Positions 51,071 to 59,596 of a stretch of 64,000 nt of DNA are shown here, one piece after another. Each line of letters begins with the position of its first letter. The first letter of the stretch is position 1. The stretch is from Brevibacillus composti (GTDB taxonomy: Bacteria; Bacillota; Bacilli; Brevibacillales; Brevibacillaceae), in contig NZ_CP066308.1 in NCBI RefSeq assembly GCF_016406105.1, positions 2,515,501-2,579,500 of the forward strand. Direction: 5' to 3'. The translations under genes were made by a program, and so were the position numbers. The notes under the pieces are model-generated. The model saw nothing but the letters and a program-made list of their open reading frames with translations, ran no database searches and was not told where the DNA came from.

Positions 51071-51143
51071 AAAAATTGGCTGCCTTTTTTTCGCACGTTT
51101 TCCGAAAAAGACAGCCTTTTGCCTGCTCTTCACTCAGCCAATT
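51071..51143 (-). terminator. Terminator downstream of the DUF1796 gene
   Basis: The arms AATTGGCTG (51143-51135) and CAGCCAATT enclose a second, smaller hairpin and are followed by TTTTCAT on the minus strand. The loop is long, so efficiency is uncertain. Confidence 0.45.
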
Positions 51144-51773
51144 ATGCGCTTATCGTAATGCCTGATAACAAGCCATCCCATACGGGGTTGCTCAGATGCC
51201 ACGGACCGTTCAGCGGCGGCACGGAAACCATACAAACTTTTTCTAGTCCACACTCGCACTCGACGATGTCAGAACCTTCATGAAAACCAATGAGCAGGAT
51301 GCGATGATCCCCCCGGACTATACGCTCCAAAACGCCTGAGAGCCTGGCTGCTTCTGCCGCCGACCCGTTAACCCGGATAAATAATACGGAATCCGCTCTG
51401 CAAATATCTGGTACAGACGGTCGATTCTGCGTTTTAGCTGTTCTGCGAAAAACGGATAGGTAGTAAGTTGATGCCATTGATTGGCTTGGGTTGGGAAATG
51501 ATGGGCAGCCACAATATTGTATCTGATGTCCCGAACGAGAAAATTCTTTTGGTCCGCATCAATTCCTTCCACGCGCAAGTTCTCGAGTTCCATAAATCCG
51601 CTGAATCGGTTTTCCAGGAGGGTCGCAACCGTATCGAGAGAATCCGAGATCATCCAATCGAGCGGTCCGGAAAAGGATCTCAATTCGCAACGCCTAAGAT
51701 GATAGGCAGGCAAGCAGTTACTTCCCAAGGAAATGATCGTATGGTAACTCCTTTTCAGCTCGTTTAATCGCAT
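51142..51773 (-). pseudogene. DUF1796 papain-like cysteine peptidase family gene, frameshifted
   Basis: Two frames together spell one protein. The first (from ATG 51773, behind GAGGGGGG) gives the family start with the likely catalytic cysteine in ISLGSNCLPAYHLRR and FSGPLDWMISD. It continues to RRIDRLYQIFAE at about 51395. The second frame then carries ADSVLFIRVNGSAAEAARL, ILLIGFHEGSD and GPWHLSNPVWDGLL to a stop at 51142. A 1-nt deletion in the run GAGCGGATTCC (about 51388-51400) would explain the switch. Last gene of the glycosyltransferase locus, 21 bp after its neighbour. Proteins of this family often occur in surface-polysaccharide loci; the activity is unproven. Confidence 0.72.
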
Positions 51774-51794
51774 TCGCATCCCCCCTCACTCGTT

Positions 51795-53882
51795 TCATAA
51801 CAGACCCGCAATCCGCATGATCTGTTCGCCTGCCGCTCGATAGTACGCATCTTCATAATGATACGGTTGCAACCCCCAACGGTGATTGGCATCAGATACG
51901 AAACCTTTCCCCCGCAAGTCAAGGGTATGGACTCCCTTCCAGATCCGCGTAAAATGCTGATAATACTCTTCCAGCTCAGTATTATTGGAGGCAATCCATT
52001 CAGGGTATTCAAAAGGCAATACTTCACTCCCGCTTCGGTAGTGCGTCATCCATGGCGCCATGTGCAGGATGATCTTTTCCGGCGGGAGATAATGCTCCAG
52101 CTTGTAGATAAACATCTCGCAGAACCATTTCCAGGTCTGTCTGGTCACGGGGTCAAAGCGCGGGATTAATTGAAACTGATACTTCCCACTCGATTCGATC
52201 CCCGATTCGGCCAGCTCATGTGAACGAGTCACGTAGCTCCCATCCTGAAACAACAGGTCAAAGCGTTCGTCGATAAAGTCGACGATCAACAAATCGACTG
52301 ACTGCGTAGCCAGTACCTCCCAAAGCTTTTTTTGGAAATCAAACAGCACCATACGTTTTTGCCACTCTGATGCCAGATTGATGTCTTGATAAGAGAGCGG
52401 AATCGGCGGGGTCATGAGACTGATCAGGGATGTGCGCGAAAAGACGGGATCGATCTGAAAGTAATGAGCGGGCAGATATTCGAAAATATCACGCGTGACA
52501 CAGCTTCCCAGTATTCCAATTTTGACGCTGGACATTTTCCTCCCCCTTTTCAAAAAGAGGTGGTTCTTTCGTGGAAACGGCTGGATCGTATAAAGGTCAA
52601 CTGGCGAGTAATGGGCGGGAATCGGGATCATCGTCCCCTCATCTGCAACAAGTGTGGCGTGAGGTTGTTCCTTTTTTGCACGGATAGCGGAACGGTAAGC
52701 TGCGACGACACTTTGGACCATTTTTTCCGCTGACCATTTGACGCTTGCCCACCGTTTTGCATTCTTCCTCATTCGGTTGCGCAGCTCCCGGTCCGCGAGA
52801 AGCGCATGTAAATTCTTGAACAAAGACCGGCTGTCTCCTGCTGGCGAGAGAAGACCGTCCTCCTGATCCGTCACCATCTCCGGGATGCCGCCCGCGTCTG
52901 TCGCCACGACAGGCAAGCCGGCCAACTGCGCTTCCATCACCGCAATCGGGAGTGTGTCCTGACGGCTGCTCAATACGAAAATATCGGCTTGTGCCAACAG
53001 TGCAGGAACATCCTCGCGGCTCCCCAACAACTGGACATGCTCGCTCAGTTTCAACTTCTTAAGCTGCGCCTCCAGATACTCGCGTAAATACCCATCGCCT
53101 ACGATCCAGCAGACCCAGTCGCTTCGTTCCTGCTGCAACAAAGACAAGGCATCGAGCAGGTCCTGATGGCCTTTGACGACATCCAGGCGAGCCGGGCAGA
53201 TGAGCACATGTTTCCCTGGCTCACGGGTGACCTCTGCCTTGTTTTTCATCTGCCGGTAAAACACCGAACAATCCAAGCCATATGGGATCACTTCCAGGCG
53301 GGCGGACGGAACCTGATATTCCCGCAGGTGGAGGTCCCGCAGCCATTTTGAGGGAACGATCGTCAGGTCTCCGGCGTTGACCCCAATCTGTTCGCGCGCC
53401 TGGATATACTCCCAGATGTCAGATCCGGGAGCAAGTGTGGAGCCGGTCAAGGTCAAATGCTCGGTAGCAATGCAGCCGTGTACGGATACGACCAGAGGGA
53501 TATGCGGAGGCTTTATGCGCTCAATCGCTCTGGCCGAGATGATGTCGTGAGCGTGGATCACATCGTAGTGGTCCACGCCGATCGACAAGGCGGCCAGTTC
53601 AAAAGCGCAGCGGTTCACTTCTTGTTCCATGACGTACGGATCGATCCCGATCATGCGTTCACGAAGAAGCGGAGTCAGCTTTTCTCTTGCTAACCGGTCG
53701 ATCGGTCCGCGATGGATAATCCGACCTTGTGGAAGCAGATGATATCCGCTCTCATCTTCGTTGCGAGCAAAAATATGAACCTGGTGTCCGACCCGCTCCA
53801 ACTCCCGCTTGAGGGTCCTGATGTGCTGGCAGACACCCCCCACATGCGGAAAGTTCCAGAATGTGGTTAACAGCACCCGCAT
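51795..53882 (-). CDS. GT4 glycosyltransferase fused in frame to a DUF6270 domain
   Basis: A 695-residue frame. Residues 1-400 are a GT-B family 4 glycosyltransferase (MRVLLTTFWNFPHVGGV; GDLTIVPSKWL; CPARLDVVKGHQDLL; the EX7E-type motif AVMEAQLAGLPVVATDAGGI). Residues 401-450 form a linker. Residues 452-695 are a DUF6270 domain opening KIGILGSCVTRDIFEY, an SGNH-like fold with a candidate Ser/Asp/His set (GSCVTRD; late DANHRWGLQPYHYED). Met450 has its own perfect ribosome binding site, so a free DUF6270 protein may also be made. It follows the upstream glycosyltransferase by 12 bp. Confidence 0.85.
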   Translation of the reverse strand: MRVLLTTFWNFPHVGGVCQHIRTLKRELERVGHQVHIFARNEDESGYHLLPQGRIIHRGPIDRLAREKLTPLLRERMIGIDPYVMEQEVNRCAFELAALSIGVDHYDVIHAHDIISARAIERIKPPHIPLVVSVHGCIATEHLTLTGSTLAPGSDIWEYIQAREQIGVNAGDLTIVPSKWLRDLHLREYQVPSARLEVIPYGLDCSVFYRQMKNKAEVTREPGKHVLICPARLDVVKGHQDLLDALSLLQQERSDWVCWIVGDGYLREYLEAQLKKLKLSEHVQLLGSREDVPALLAQADIFVLSSRQDTLPIAVMEAQLAGLPVVATDAGGIPEMVTDQEDGLLSPAGDSRSLFKNLHALLADRELRNRMRKNAKRWASVKWSAEKMVQSVVAAYRSAIRAKKEQPHATLVADEGTMIPIPAHYSPVDLYTIQPFPRKNHLFLKRGRKMSSVKIGILGSCVTRDIFEYLPAHYFQIDPVFSRTSLISLMTPPIPLSYQDINLASEWQKRMVLFDFQKKLWEVLATQSVDLLIVDFIDERFDLLFQDGSYVTRSHELAESGIESSGKYQFQLIPRFDPVTRQTWKWFCEMFIYKLEHYLPPEKIILHMAPWMTHYRSGSEVLPFEYPEWIASNNTELEEYYQHFTRIWKGVHTLDLRGKGFVSDANHRWGLQPYHYEDAYYRAAGEQIMRIAGLL
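52535..52550 (-). promoter_or_regulatory. Internal ribosome binding site and ATG for the DUF6270 domain
   Basis: Inside the long frame, GAAAAGGGGGAGGAAA precedes ATG (52535-52533) at ideal spacing, exactly where a stand-alone DUF6270 protein (246 residues) would begin. This suggests the two domains were separate cistrons or are still translated separately. Confidence 0.6.
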
Positions 53883-53894
53883 GTTGCTCTCTCC

Positions 53895-55319
53895 TTACAA
53901 AGAGCCTTTTTTGGCTGCAAATTCATGCAGGCGCTTCATGATGTAGGGATCAGGAATGGTGTAACCCGGTGGCAGCGCGTTCATGATTTGGCGCCAGACT
54001 TGGGGATCAAGCCGATTGTCATCCCTCTCTTTCCGCCAACTGGGGAAGAGCGAATTCATTCTTTTTGAGCTTTTTACGGACGAGCTTTCTGACATTGGGG
54101 ATCCCTCCTTTGTTTTTTTCCCGATGACAGCCCGGTACATCTGCAGAGTTTCCCGAATCATCCCCTCCATGCTCCACTGCGCCATCCCCCATTTCTTCGC
54201 CTTTTGGCCCAGTTGCTCTCCCCAATCGGGCTTCTCCAGCAGACCCTTCAGTGCGGCGAGCAACTCCTGCCTGTCACCCTTCCGGATAAGGATACCGTTC
54301 TCACCGTTCTCCACCATCTCCGGAATGCCGCCAACATCAGAGACCACGACGGGCTTTCCGGCCAATTGCGCCTCCATGACCGCAAACGGCAAATTATCCT
54401 GCCAACTGGGAAGCACGAAGATGTCGGCAAGGTTAAGCAATGAAGGCACATCGCCGCGCGGCCCCAAAAACAGCACATGGTCCTTGAGATCAAGCTGCCG
54501 CGCAGTAGCTCGCAACTCCTCCTCCATTGGCCCGTCACCGATGATCCAGCAGAGCCAATCGCTCCGCTCTTCTTTGAGGGCCGCCAGCGTGTGGAGCAAG
54601 TCGAGATGTCCCTTGAATCGGGGCAGGCGTGCCACACAAGCGATTACTTTTTTGCCAGCAGGCTTCGGCATCTCGCTCGCTCGGTTCATCTCACCGAAAA
54701 AGCCAGCCAGATCGATGCCATAAGGTATGCGCACCGCCCGGGTTTCGCAGGCGCCGCACTCCTGAATCAAATATTGTTTCAGCCACTCAGTCGGGGCGAT
54801 GATCAAGTCACCGGCTGCCGCTCCCAGTCGCTCCAACTGCTCAGAGTACTGCCAGGAGAGAGAGGCGCTGTTGCCGATATGTCCATAGAAATGCATTTCC
54901 TTGGTAAAGCAGCCGTGAACGGTTGAGAGGAGGCCGACATGCGCAGGTCTTACTCTGGAGAAAGCATACGCAGACAGGACGTCCTGCGCGTGTATCAAAT
55001 CATAGCTGGCAAGCGGCAAGCTGGCCGCAGCCAATTCATAGCTATACCGCTCCAGCTCCGTTTCCCTGACCCAATGTTCTCCTGCAAGTCCGGACCACTC
55101 GTGCAGCGAAGCCACTAGCGGCTCTACAGAATGGCGGAGAGGCTGCTTTTCGATCCTGTACGTACCTCCGGGAGCGTAGTATGAATGGAAGCAGGGATGG
55201 TGGCCGAACAAATCGACTTGGTGGTTTGCTTTTTCCAGTTCATGCTTGAGCTGAAACACATAGGCGGACAGCCCCCCTACATGCGGCAGAGTCCAATAGG
55301 TGGCCAGGAGAATTTTCAT
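53895..55319 (-). CDS. GT4 glycosyltransferase with a 66-residue in-frame C-terminal extension
   Basis: A 474-residue frame. Residues 1-403 are a family 4 glycosyltransferase (MKILLATYWTLPHVGGL; GDLIIAPTEWLKQYL; CVARLPRFKGHLDLL; AVMEAQLAGKPVVVSDVGGI). Residues 409-474 are an extension (MSESSSVKSSKRMNSLFPSW ... PPGYTIPDPYIMKRLHEF) not seen in the sister enzymes. Its Met409 (54095) follows AAAGGAGG at 8 nt, so it looks like a separate small cistron whose upstream stop codon is missing. The ATG at 55319 overlaps the next gene's stop (ATGA). Confidence 0.87.
   Translation of the reverse strand: MKILLATYWTLPHVGGLSAYVFQLKHELEKANHQVDLFGHHPCFHSYYAPGGTYRIEKQPLRHSVEPLVASLHEWSGLAGEHWVRETELERYSYELAAASLPLASYDLIHAQDVLSAYAFSRVRPAHVGLLSTVHGCFTKEMHFYGHIGNSASLSWQYSEQLERLGAAAGDLIIAPTEWLKQYLIQECGACETRAVRIPYGIDLAGFFGEMNRASEMPKPAGKKVIACVARLPRFKGHLDLLHTLAALKEERSDWLCWIIGDGPMEEELRATARQLDLKDHVLFLGPRGDVPSLLNLADIFVLPSWQDNLPFAVMEAQLAGKPVVVSDVGGIPEMVENGENGILIRKGDRQELLAALKGLLEKPDWGEQLGQKAKKWGMAQWSMEGMIRETLQMYRAVIGKKTKEGSPMSESSSVKSSKRMNSLFPSWRKERDDNRLDPQVWRQIMNALPPGYTIPDPYIMKRLHEFAAKKGSL
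54095..54111 (-). promoter_or_regulatory. Internal ribosome binding site and ATG for the 66-residue extension
   Basis: AAAGGAGGGATCCCCA followed by ATG (54095-54093) gives ideal spacing inside the long glycosyltransferase frame, directly after the normal GT4 end (MYRAVIGKKT). Confidence 0.6.
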
Positions 55320-56536
55320 CGAATTCCTCCCCTTCCCGCCTCCCGAAGCCGGAAACACTCTTCGTAAACCTCCAGGATCTTGTCGGTCATCAGATCCAGA
55401 CTCCATCTCTCTCGTCCTTCTCTTTTGGCGTTCTCCCCTAATTTGCGGCGAAGCCAGGGGTCCTCCATTACGGCCCTGATGTTTTCGTAAAGCATATGGC
55501 TGTTGGCGACAGGTGAGACGAGACCAGTGATCTTATCCTTGACGACTTCCGCGATCCCTCCTGCATTGGTTACCACCACCGCTTTGCCTGCGATTTGCGC
55601 CTCCATCGTGGCATAGCTCTGCGTTTCGTAGAGGCTGGCGAGGACAAAAATATCGAGTTGCTGAAGAAGCGCGGAGACGTCGTGCACATCCCCCCAAAAG
55701 ACGATATGGTCTCGGATGCCGAGCTGCTCGGCTTGACTCTCCAGTTCCGATCTCATCGGCCCGTCTCCAATCAGCCACAACTCCCAGTCGCTCCGCTCCT
55801 GCTTTAACTTGCCAAGGGCCTCCAGCAGATAGCGATGTCCTTTTTCCCTGGACAATCGCGCGACGCACCCGAGATAAAACCGGTCGCTATTTTTGACCAG
55901 ACAGGAGTCTAACCGCCTTTGGAAGCATTCCACATCAAAACCGTTATGGATGACGACCAATTGTTCGAGGGGAATACGGAACTTTCGATGCAGATAGTTT
56001 TTGAACCACTTCGATGGCACGATGGTCCTGTCGCTGACCGTTGCCCCGTATTGTTCCTGCATGATGCTGTACGCGCGGGACAGGGGATGGTCAATCCAGC
56101 CAACTTGCTTGTAAGAAAGATGCAAACTTCCATGTATTGTCGTGATCAGGGGGGTATCAGGAGGTTTGACTCGGGACATGGCGATGGAGGAGATAATGTC
56201 ATTGCAGTGAAGGATATCGTAGGATGAAAGGTTAAAGTAACTGGCGGCAAGTTCAAACGTATAGCGCTCCGCCTCCCGTTCAATTATCCACGAACCCAGC
56301 TCCATTTTTTTCTCCGCATAGCTTTTTTCCACATGATTTGCAACCATTCCCTTGAGCGGCTTCAATTGAAGCGCAGCGTCGCGTTCATACAAATAATAAT
56401 GTCTGGACTGGGGTTGACGGGCGAAAAAATCGACTTCATGCCCCTTCCTTCTCAATCCTTTTTGCAGTTGATCGATATAGTTCCACACACCGCTGATACT
56501 TGGCAATTCAAAATAGGATGACAATAAAATTTTGAT
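55316..56536 (-). CDS. GT4 glycosyltransferase with a non-standard start
   Basis: A GT-B family 4 enzyme of about 406 residues, sister to the two downstream (SYFELPSISGVWNYIDQLQ; RTIVPSKWFKNYL; CVARLSREKGHRYLL; ATMEAQIAGKAVVVTNAGGI). The conserved first strand KILL is encoded, but the codon before it is ATC (56536-56534), placed 8 nt after GGAGG where an ATG is expected. The first conventional start is TTG at 56524, which would remove the strand. Either ATC is used, TTG is used with a damaged N-terminus, or the base is a sequence error. First gene of the four-gene locus. Confidence 0.82.
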   Translation of the reverse strand: MKILLSSYFELPSISGVWNYIDQLQKGLRRKGHEVDFFARQPQSRHYYLYERDAALQLKPLKGMVANHVEKSYAEKKMELGSWIIEREAERYTFELAASYFNLSSYDILHCNDIISSIAMSRVKPPDTPLITTIHGSLHLSYKQVGWIDHPLSRAYSIMQEQYGATVSDRTIVPSKWFKNYLHRKFRIPLEQLVVIHNGFDVECFQRRLDSCLVKNSDRFYLGCVARLSREKGHRYLLEALGKLKQERSDWELWLIGDGPMRSELESQAEQLGIRDHIVFWGDVHDVSALLQQLDIFVLASLYETQSYATMEAQIAGKAVVVTNAGGIAEVVKDKITGLVSPVANSHMLYENIRAVMEDPWLRRKLGENAKREGRERWSLDLMTDKILEVYEECFRLREAGRGGIR

Positions 56537-56579
56537 ATGATGCCCCTCCTTTCCGGATAGTCGCGGTTAGACCCTCTGC

Positions 56580-57779: not shown

Positions 57780-59192
57780 TCACGCAGTCACTTGTCGATA
57801 ATAATCTGAGAAGAAAAGAAATCCGAGGCCTTTAATGGTGTTGTTATCGAGGGCTTTCGCGAGGATGGGGCTATTGGAGATTCTCCAGTAGCTCTTTCTT
57901 GTATTTGCGTATTCCCATGCCTTGAACTTTGGGATTCCAAACGAGATCAGCTTTTCGAATTTTGTCCTTATTCGTTTCCATTGTTTCCAGTAGATCATTC
58001 GAATCCTTCTTCTCATCCATTCATCCGTTGTTTGGAGCAGGTTCTTCATATCCGCAATCTTGAAGTAGTTGACCCATCCCATGATATAGCGTCTGAGCCT
58101 TTCGGCTCTCTCTTCATTTCCCATGCCATTGCTTCTTGCGGTTAGTTCCTTCACTCTTGTTTTCATTTTGGCGATGGATTTGGGATGGATGCGGACTTTC
58201 ACTTGCCCTCGTTGGTTGTAGAATGAGAATCCCAGAAACTTCACTCGAATGGCTAGGTCCACCACGGTTTTCTCCCGATTTACTTTTAGGAACAGCTTCT
58301 TTTCAATGTAGGGGAGAATGTTGGTTAGTGTCCGTTCGGCACTTCGTCTGCTCTTGCAGAAGATGAGTAAATCATCTGCGTATCGCACAAACTTGTGTCC
58401 TCTCTTCTCCAGCTCCTTGTCCAACTCATTCAGCATGATATTACTGAGAATTGGACTCAGATTCCCGCCCTGCGGTACGCCGACTTCTGTTTCCTCAAAC
58501 TTGTGCTTCACGACAACTCCTGCCCGAAGATATTTATGAATTAGTGAAATGACTCGTCCGTCCTTAATCGTTCTTGAGAGTACTTCAATGAGCTTGCTTT
58601 GGTTGACGGTGTCAAAGTATTTCTCTAGATCCATATCCACAACATAGCGGTAGCCTTCCTGAATATATTGCTGGCTGCGCCTTATGGCTTGGTGGGCACT
58701 TCGTTTGGGTCGGAACCCGAAGCTGTTGTCCGAGAACTGTTGCTCATAGATCGGCGTGAGCATTTGTGCAATTGCCTGCTGGATTACTCGATCAACCACC
58801 GTTGGGATGCCCAGGTTTCTTTTCTTTCCGTTCTCTTTTGGGATTTCTACCCTTCGAACGGGATTTGGGCGATATCTGCCCGCCAGGATTTGTTCCTTGA
58901 TGGTTTCACCGTTTTCTTTGAGATATTGTAGAAGTTCATCTACGCCCATCCCGTCGATTCCGTGTGAACCTTTATTCGCTTTGACTCTTTTGAACGCTTC
59001 GTTCAAATTGTCTCTGCTTATGATTTTCTCAAGTAACCTTTCCTTCGACTCGTTTGCGTTGGTGTCGTCGGTTTCAGCTATCCTCTCAGGAACGTGCACT
59101 CCCGCATATCCTTCGTGTTCCGCACTATTCTTTTGCGGTGAGCCTTCCGTTGGAAGTTGGCTGCCCTTATCTCCTGTTTCGGTAACATTCAT
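57780..59192 (-). CDS. ltrA: Group II intron reverse transcriptase/maturase
   Basis: A 470-residue intron-encoded protein: RT domains RT1-7 (GSHGIDGMGVDELLQYL; RNLGIPTVVDRVIQQAIAQM; FGFRPKRSAHQAI; VDMDLEKYFDTVN; GVPQGGNLSPILSNIMLNEL) with the catalytic YADD at 271-274, then a maturase X domain (RLRRYIMGWVNYFKIADMK ... KSYWRISNSPILAKAL). It lacks the H-N-H endonuclease, as class C proteins do. The ATG at 59192 follows AGGAGG. Confidence 0.95.
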   Translation of the reverse strand: MNVTETGDKGSQLPTEGSPQKNSAEHEGYAGVHVPERIAETDDTNANESKERLLEKIISRDNLNEAFKRVKANKGSHGIDGMGVDELLQYLKENGETIKEQILAGRYRPNPVRRVEIPKENGKKRNLGIPTVVDRVIQQAIAQMLTPIYEQQFSDNSFGFRPKRSAHQAIRRSQQYIQEGYRYVVDMDLEKYFDTVNQSKLIEVLSRTIKDGRVISLIHKYLRAGVVVKHKFEETEVGVPQGGNLSPILSNIMLNELDKELEKRGHKFVRYADDLLIFCKSRRSAERTLTNILPYIEKKLFLKVNREKTVVDLAIRVKFLGFSFYNQRGQVKVRIHPKSIAKMKTRVKELTARSNGMGNEERAERLRRYIMGWVNYFKIADMKNLLQTTDEWMRRRIRMIYWKQWKRIRTKFEKLISFGIPKFKAWEYANTRKSYWRISNSPILAKALDNNTIKGLGFLFFSDYYRQVTA

Positions 59193-59596
59193 TGACGACC
59201 ACCTCCTAAGGTTCAGCCCTTCCCTCAAGCCGTCGACTGCTCGAGGTACTATGGCGTCTGCTGACTTCTCATGATAAATCTTGTTTCAACCGTGATTCGA
59301 ATGTCATCTTCTCACGTCCATGAGACCTCCCACGGTAAGACGACTCACTTTCCTCCCATATACCCGCATCATTTACACCGGAATGTCCGTGTAGTGTATT
59401 GGACTTTGCTTTGTCTCGCAAGCTTGTCCCATTCCATATGCCTGATGATGTTCGTGTTCCTCGGGCCGGGATTTTGCCTCCAGCTTCCTTCAGATTCCAC
59501 CTCACGGTGGACACCCTTGCTCTTGGCTAGTGGTTGGCCACTACCAGCCCCCACAGCGGACTTTCACCGCCTAGTTAGTCGCCATGCGTGGCGCAC

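Follow-up and report, generated by a model that had tools for sequence, protein, structure and literature searches.

Two neighbouring glycosyltransferase genes of Brevibacillus composti, here called GT1 and GT2, each run in frame into a second coding region that keeps an ATG and a Shine–Dalgarno (SD) sequence of its own, and the locus raises the question of whether each long gene was once two and whether it still yields two products. The genes lie in a stretch of 64,000 nucleotides (the window; contig NZ_CP066308.1 of RefSeq assembly GCF_016406105.1, positions 2,515,501 to 2,579,500 of the forward strand), and positions given below are those of the window. We consider it likely that both are in-frame fusions of a GT4 glycosyltransferase with the gene that formerly followed it, formed by loss of a stop codon or an equivalent change of frame and retaining the start sites of the second genes. 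The case for this reading is firm for GT1; for GT2 it is less so. The chief surprise is a conserved pair of a GT4 enzyme and a partner module, for which the sequence searches made against Pfam, NCBIfam and the PDB gave no match.

The long frames and their inner start sites

GT1 (55319–53895, minus strand, 474 residues) and GT2 (53882–51795, minus strand, 695 residues) are free of internal stops, and both score above the Pfam cut-offs for PF00534 and PF13439, as does a third GT4 gene, GT0. The first-pass annotation of this DNA had placed in-frame ATGs without a preceding stop at 54095 and 52535, and a frame check (frame 0, minus strand) bears this out. The inner cistron of GT1 (53895–54095, minus strand) would encode a 66-residue partner protein carrying a W..LP..YtIPD module; its ATG (54095, residue 409 of GT1) follows the sequence AAGGAGG (54104–54110) at a spacing of 8 nucleotides (nt), with an SD duplex energy of -13.0. 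The inner cistron of GT2 (51795–52535, minus strand) would encode a DUF6270 protein of 246 residues from the ATG at 52535 (residue 450; energy -11.8). Both SD sequences had been called ideal, which is true at 54095 but not at 52535, where the purine-rich GGGGGAGG (52539–52546) places GGAGG only 3 nt from the ATG and offers an alternative register, AAGGGGG with one mismatch, at 6 nt. Likewise, the inner ATG had been placed exactly at the end of the GT4 fold, which is true of GT1 (structural matches over residues 1–402, Met409) but not of GT2, in which Met450 follows a linker of ∼45 residues.

The frequency of such sites was estimated from twenty 20-kb stretches of the same genome together with the window (464 kb), from which 336 open reading frames (ORFs) of at least 150 residues were chosen mechanically; these contain 2131 internal in-frame ATGs, both sites counted. 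The energy of the GT1 site is reached by 13 of the 2131 and that of the GT2 site by 23, corresponding to roughly four and seven sites per 100 ORFs, and a perfect AAGGAGG at a spacing of 4–11 nt precedes only three, GT1 among them. We infer, in agreement with the first-pass annotation, that two such sites in adjacent genes and at domain borders are not expected by chance. Their repetition in neighbouring genes fits two adjacent gene pairs within one operon.

The partner module

Residues 1 to ∼402 of GT1 form a complete fold of the GT4 retaining glycosyltransferases (Glycos_transf_1/Glyco_transf_4). The AlphaFold model of GT1, with a mean predicted local distance difference test (pLDDT) score of 92, confirms the GT-B fold of GT4 enzymes, its best structural match being BshA of B. 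subtilis (Z 36.2, root-mean-square deviation 2.6 over 345 aligned residues, 20% identity). GT1 differs from BshA by its added C-terminal module, which in relatives is often encoded by a downstream partner gene.

The 66 residues behind Met409 had been taken for a protein of unknown type; the length stands, and the protein can now be assigned to this conserved module. A search with GT1 found glycosyltransferases (GTs) of relatives with C-termini that align with its tail, and the profile of those C-termini (A2) also matched short frames adjoining GTs and the ends of lysine/arginine-rich proteins encoded after tail-less GTs (alignment A3). The tail is a fused copy of an unnamed module of ∼45 residues with the pattern F...W......LP..Y.iPD, and positions F17, W34, P42, Y45 and P48 are all present in it (46-row alignment, with the GT1 tail as the first row). 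An alignment that mixed GTs with small partners misplaced the small rows and was set aside. The GT1 tail matched no Pfam or NCBIfam model. Among the partner proteins tried, Pfam returned one carboxypeptidase regulatory-like domain, outside the module, in one protein and otherwise weak matches below cut-off, and NCBIfam gave only sub-cut-off matches. The module had no match in a PDB sequence search, and its model found no Foldseek match better than E 2.1 and no convincing fold match in the PDB. It is modelled with pLDDT 85–91 within the whole protein and, when modelled alone, 88–89 over residues 31–60.

The distribution of the module was surveyed in 398 genomes drawn evenly from the class, with at most 17 candidates scored per genome, so that matches may have been missed. 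Module matches at E 0.01 or better, 43 in total, were present in 19 of the genomes. All but two of them fall inside members of this GT4 family or their remnants, or no more than about 2 kb away (one of the remnants was recognized by eye); the exceptions are marginal matches in genomes G603 and G767, where the stretch fetched contains no such GT. When named genomes were scanned with the alignment of the GT family, the best 80 by similarity to GT1 gave 78 loci, which are hence not a random sample and come from Paenibacillus, Cohnella, Bacillus, Lysinibacillus, Sporolactobacillus, Alicyclobacillus, Thermoactinomyces and others; no module was found in those from Alicyclobacillus and Thermoactinomyces. 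These loci include three sets of near copies (L238/L241, L226/L227 and L257/L277) and three from genomes already seen (L235, L236 and L296), which were kept in the counts. Of the 78 loci, 50 have the module in the gene that follows the GT and five have it fused to the GT by profile, or seven if L230 and L231, recognized by eye, are added.

The free partners, like the inner cistron of GT1, have a start and SD sequence of their own near the end of the GT. In 49 next-gene cases (the start of the remaining one, L229, was not measured) the partner begins between -145 and +97 nt from the GT stop, 48 of them between -35 and +97, with a median overlap of 4 nt; 25 overlap the GT by at least 4 nt. The SD energies of these starts range from -9.0 to -18.0 (median -12.6), a range that contains the GT1 site; what sets GT1 apart, as in the other profile-detected fusions, is the want of a stop between the two parts. 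Nineteen of the 49 partners have at most 75 residues (55–70) and stand behind GTs of 403–414 residues, in nine the module is repeated, with two to five copies, and in 14 lysine and arginine make up at least 18% of the residues. Two genomes of the family, G036 and G035, each encode a separate module protein of 65–66 residues directly after the GT; that of G036 is read in a different frame from its GT, with an ATG 23 nt ahead of the end of the GT stop and an SD energy of -17.6, and in G035 the energy is -21.6. In the G-numbered genomes, 14 unfused pairs (B. composti itself and one GT remnant included) have partner starts at -27 to +29 nt and energies of -9.0 to -21.8.

Several variants of the pair were seen. 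In L244, L252, L253, L260, L262 and L270 a partner of ∼290–315 residues downstream of the GT consists of five tandem modules and a short N-terminal segment, a possible scaffold. A separate GT4 branch with another C-terminal part, carboxypeptidase regulatory-like by eye (L071:5860–7470, L127:10966–12576, L132:9697–11235 and L133:9229–11247), lies near GTs whose next gene is a basic module protein. Elsewhere in the B. composti genome, the C-terminal half of a GT and the module stand behind an unrelated-looking N-terminus (L073:5356–6510).

A probable course from gene pair to fusion in GT1

The first-pass annotation had suggested a comparison of orthologues for stops before the inner ATGs, and in most module-bearing relatives such a stop is present, as the above counts of 50 next-gene and five to seven fused loci among the 78 show. 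In seven loci a small partner lies in the same frame as its GT (L238, L241, L245, L248, L255, L261 and L265), separated from it by a single stop in six and by two stops in L265. The junction of L238 (Paenibacillus ferrarius) reads AAG TGA TCA AAG GAG GCG GAG GGT ATG, and that of GT1, AAA AAA ACA AAG GAG GGA TCC CCA ATG, aligns with it codon for codon, with AAA in place of TGA. Of the two independent stop losses offered earlier as one explanation of the locus, that in GT1 is thus well supported, since relatives have a separate second gene with its own start and SD sequence at the GT stop; that in GT2 is less so.

A quick tree was built from 91 GTs, 75 from the 78 loci (L235, L236 and L296 being left out) and 16 chosen from those found earlier; not all fused GTs are included. 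On this tree the fused state needs six changes, at least three of them forced by starred branches, so fusion has arisen repeatedly. GT1 is the sole member of 18 fused GTs with an ATG of SD energy -10 or lower in its linker. Two others have GTG starts (G705, -15.8; G032, -12.0), a third has an ATG inside the module (G034, -9.7) and the remaining 14 have nothing comparable. This singular position suggests either that the fusion in GT1 is recent or that its inner start has been kept in use.

GT2 and DUF6270

The report of a complete DUF6270 behind 52535 is confirmed: PF19786 matches residues 457–676 of GT2 over its whole length (profile positions 1–222 of 222; E 1.1e-56; 192.7 bits against a cut-off of 27.5). 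Several free or N-terminal DUF6270 proteins start a few residues before a GSC motif (L097, MKIAVLGSC; L092, MKVLIFGSC; L100, MGRIKVAVIGSC; L098, MTLINVAVLGCC), and the frame at 52535 likewise opens shortly before GSC (MSSVKIGILGSC), so that its start matches those of several free proteins; the DUF6270 frames of L094 and L095 extend further upstream. The domain is rare, being found in 14 of 398 genomes of the class (12 above cut-off) and in three of 398 of the phylum, B. composti being included in both counts. Elsewhere it is free or, as judged by eye, fused to a GT-A type transferase, an esterase-like part or a heparinase-like part, so that a DUF6270 fusion is not unique to GT2, which differs in carrying the domain behind a GT4 enzyme. 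A DUF6270 gene of G266 begins in an ATGA overlap with the stop of the frame upstream, which by eye is glycosyltransferase-like. A similar ATGA overlap with the upstream frame starts the gene L092:5799–8786, in which DUF6270 is joined to a long heparinase-like part (by eye). No usable match to DUF6270 was obtained in a PDB sequence search (best E 0.9), and a search of one literature library returned no paper naming DUF6270 or DUF1796.

Within the family no GT with a free DUF6270 gene directly behind it was found, and the case for stop loss is therefore weaker for GT2 than for GT1. A search of genome contigs for close protein matches likewise gave no direct relatives of GT2. In the quick tree GT2 groups with GTb of G036 and G035 (Shimodaira–Hasegawa-like approximate likelihood-ratio test 91), and the GT2 linker contains a motif, IPAHYSPVD (52596–52622, minus strand), that resembles VPxxYSLVD in the C-terminal tails of these two tandem GTb proteins. 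The linker scores 12.7 bits against the two tails, a value reached by none of 5000 shuffles, and against an 11-row profile that includes them four of 5000 shuffles score as high. The GT of GT2 would thus probably, though not certainly, have ended shortly after IPAHYSPVD before it was joined to DUF6270.

Proposed history and competing explanations

In the history that we favour, each long gene would combine a GT4 enzyme with the gene that once followed it, and the inner ATG and SD sequence would be the inherited start of that gene. The second gene of GT1 would have encoded a small dedicated partner of the GT4 enzyme, consisting of the ∼45-residue module, which in relatives is encoded just downstream, often together with a variable N-terminal part and commonly in overlap with the GT stop; that of GT2 would have encoded DUF6270, preceded now by what appears to be a short tail of the GT itself. 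Translation of one mRNA would then most likely yield the full-length fusion together with some free partner, begun at the intact inner start. That nested translation still produces a free second protein is plausible, both start sites being intact.

Several observations weigh against this history. At the threshold used, 23 of the 78 loci have no module in or beside the query GT. L230 and L231, fused by eye, are among these, as are L278, L289, L290 and L297, which carry the module elsewhere in the locus, and L220, L221, L222 and L290, where the contig ends within 1.5 kb of the GT; several of the 23 have a lysine-rich next gene without a recognized module. The partner starts were chosen as the best SD near the junction, which biases their energies towards low values. 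GT1 sits on a long branch and its placement is unsure in both trees; its descent from a free pair is therefore drawn from the family at large and not from a sister gene. Fifteen of the 18 fused GTs lack a linker start at energy -10 or lower, and one without such a start, L266, is fused inside a clade with free partners, so a free product is not required for fusion. As regards GT2, DUF6270 occurs in one of 39 genomes of the family, B. composti itself, and in none of the 78 loci. A more careful tree of 26 rows does not resolve GT2 and GTb, which slightly lowers our confidence in the reading as a whole. Linker profiles that omit the GTb tails fail (135 of 960, 388 of 5000, 258 of 3000 and 344 of 3000 shuffles scoring as high), and the evidence for the linker motif therefore comes from two relatives.

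It is possible, if not the view we favour, that the operon is decaying, the two stop losses being lesions under relaxed selection and the inner starts leftovers without a role. The operon is a recurring kind of neighbourhood, with DUF1796 inside the fetched locus in 42 of the 78 GT4 loci, and in the window it has lesions at both ends. At the upstream end, GT0 (55316–56524, minus strand), whose stop overlaps the start of GT1 as ATGA, has, within 56510–56560 (minus strand), a strong SD sequence followed by ATC (ATC AAA ATT TTA) at the position of the family ATG, and its first usual start, TTG at 56524, is poorly placed. Of 51 positions with a conservation of at least 96% among 51 relatives, GT0 retains 44, and its start is one of the seven it has lost. 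At the downstream end, the DUF1796 gene (51142–51779, minus strand) is frameshifted, with its first half matching relatives in one frame and its second half in another; we know of no role for DUF1796, a putative papain-like cysteine peptidase. Decay would also agree with the long branches of GT1 in both trees and of GT0 in the second, and with a GT elsewhere in the genome that is cut off after 183 residues (L074:6297–6848). The two fused genes themselves speak against it: each keeps 49 of the 51 conserved positions, as relatives do (0–5 lost in the eight of 51 relatives listed), the long frames are intact, the GT4 and DUF6270 matches are complete and GT1 is modelled with high confidence.

Somewhat doubtful is the explanation that the fusions have been retained as dual-product genes, in which nested initiation would set the ratio of tethered to free partner. 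The lone linker ATG of GT1 among the fused GTs would suit such a function, as would the energies of both inner sites, which fall inside the range of free partners, and the partner starts of relatives, which in 25 of 49 cases already lie inside the GT frame. A recent fusion would equally retain its inner start, however, and 14 of the 18 fused GTs manage without anything comparable, notwithstanding the GTG starts of G705 and G032 and the ATG of G034.

We regard it as improbable that one-base homopolymer errors of sequencing or assembly have joined frames that are truly separate. Homopolymers are at hand, an A7 run (54113–54119) just 5′ of the SD sequence of GT1 and a T5 run before that of GT2. 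Counted from the A of the inner ATG, the first stop past it in the other two frames of GT1 would end after 22 or 77 nt, the former value being similar to overlaps of 23–29 nt in six relatives; GT2 has, in one of its other frames, a stop whose end is 14 nt upstream of the inner ATG. The frameshift in DUF1796 and the start of GT0 likewise have the look of local lesions. Against this, chance often places a stop nearby in another frame, and earlier stops exist in these frames too, while the assembly (two contigs, 99.92% complete) indicates that errors are not pervasive. Least convincing is the view that the tail of GT1 has long belonged to the enzyme as a C-terminal domain and that an SD sequence and ATG arose by chance in its linker: the module is indeed fused in other GTs without a comparable start, but the tail is as large as a complete small partner (as in the 19 free examples, with Met409 of GT1 falling among GT ends at 403–414), its SD spacing agrees codon for codon with L238 and its SD energy is among the best 13 of 2131.

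Possible function and related systems

Returning to the reading of two stop-loss fusions, the module very likely acts with the GT by Rosetta stone logic, since it is fused in some species and adjacent in others. Its varied settings, as a small free protein, behind a basic N-terminus and in arrays, are what would be expected of a docking or tethering part. In the proposed mechanism the module would keep the GT at or beside the acceptor layer, probably in the synthesis of spore-surface glycans. We offer, tentatively and as a proposal more likely wrong than right, a broader version in which the module, whether free and small, at the C-terminus of lysine/arginine-rich proteins, in arrays of up to five copies or as an enzyme tail, would hold the GT4 family as a whole at its site of action on the spore surface, GT1 making a tethered and a free form from one gene; if so, arrays of up to five modules could line up several enzymes.

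A connection with the spore is suggested by the groups of hosts that carry the module, which we take to be mostly spore formers, by nucleotide-sugar genes near some GT4–module pairs and by two CotS-family proteins (TIGR02906, above the NCBIfam cut-off) near the pair of G445 (L206). One report describes clustering of the spore-associated glycosyl transferases CotSA/YtcC with CotS/YtaA kinases (PMC2860764), to which the L206 pair is likened by its neighbourhood. A search of the literature for spore GTs with small partners returned, in titles and abstract openings, nothing on the GT4–module pair.

Nested in-frame starts that give a long and a short product from one gene are known from CheA. GT1 and GT2 share with that case an inner ATG and SD sequence in a long frame; unlike CheA, GT1 has an inner part that relatives encode as a gene of its own, and the arrangement is known here from sequence. 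The locus would be a natural test of whether a start site still works once the upstream gene has swallowed the gene it served. With the pairing, a family of unnamed genes in Bacilli also acquires a role that can be tested; the 19 of the 49 measured partners with only 55–70 residues are readily overlooked in annotation.

Other features of the window

The genes spoIVB and spo0A are normally adjacent. In the window a reverse-transcriptase frame (57780–59228; of group II intron type, by eye) separates spo0A from a gene that by eye is spoIVB-like.

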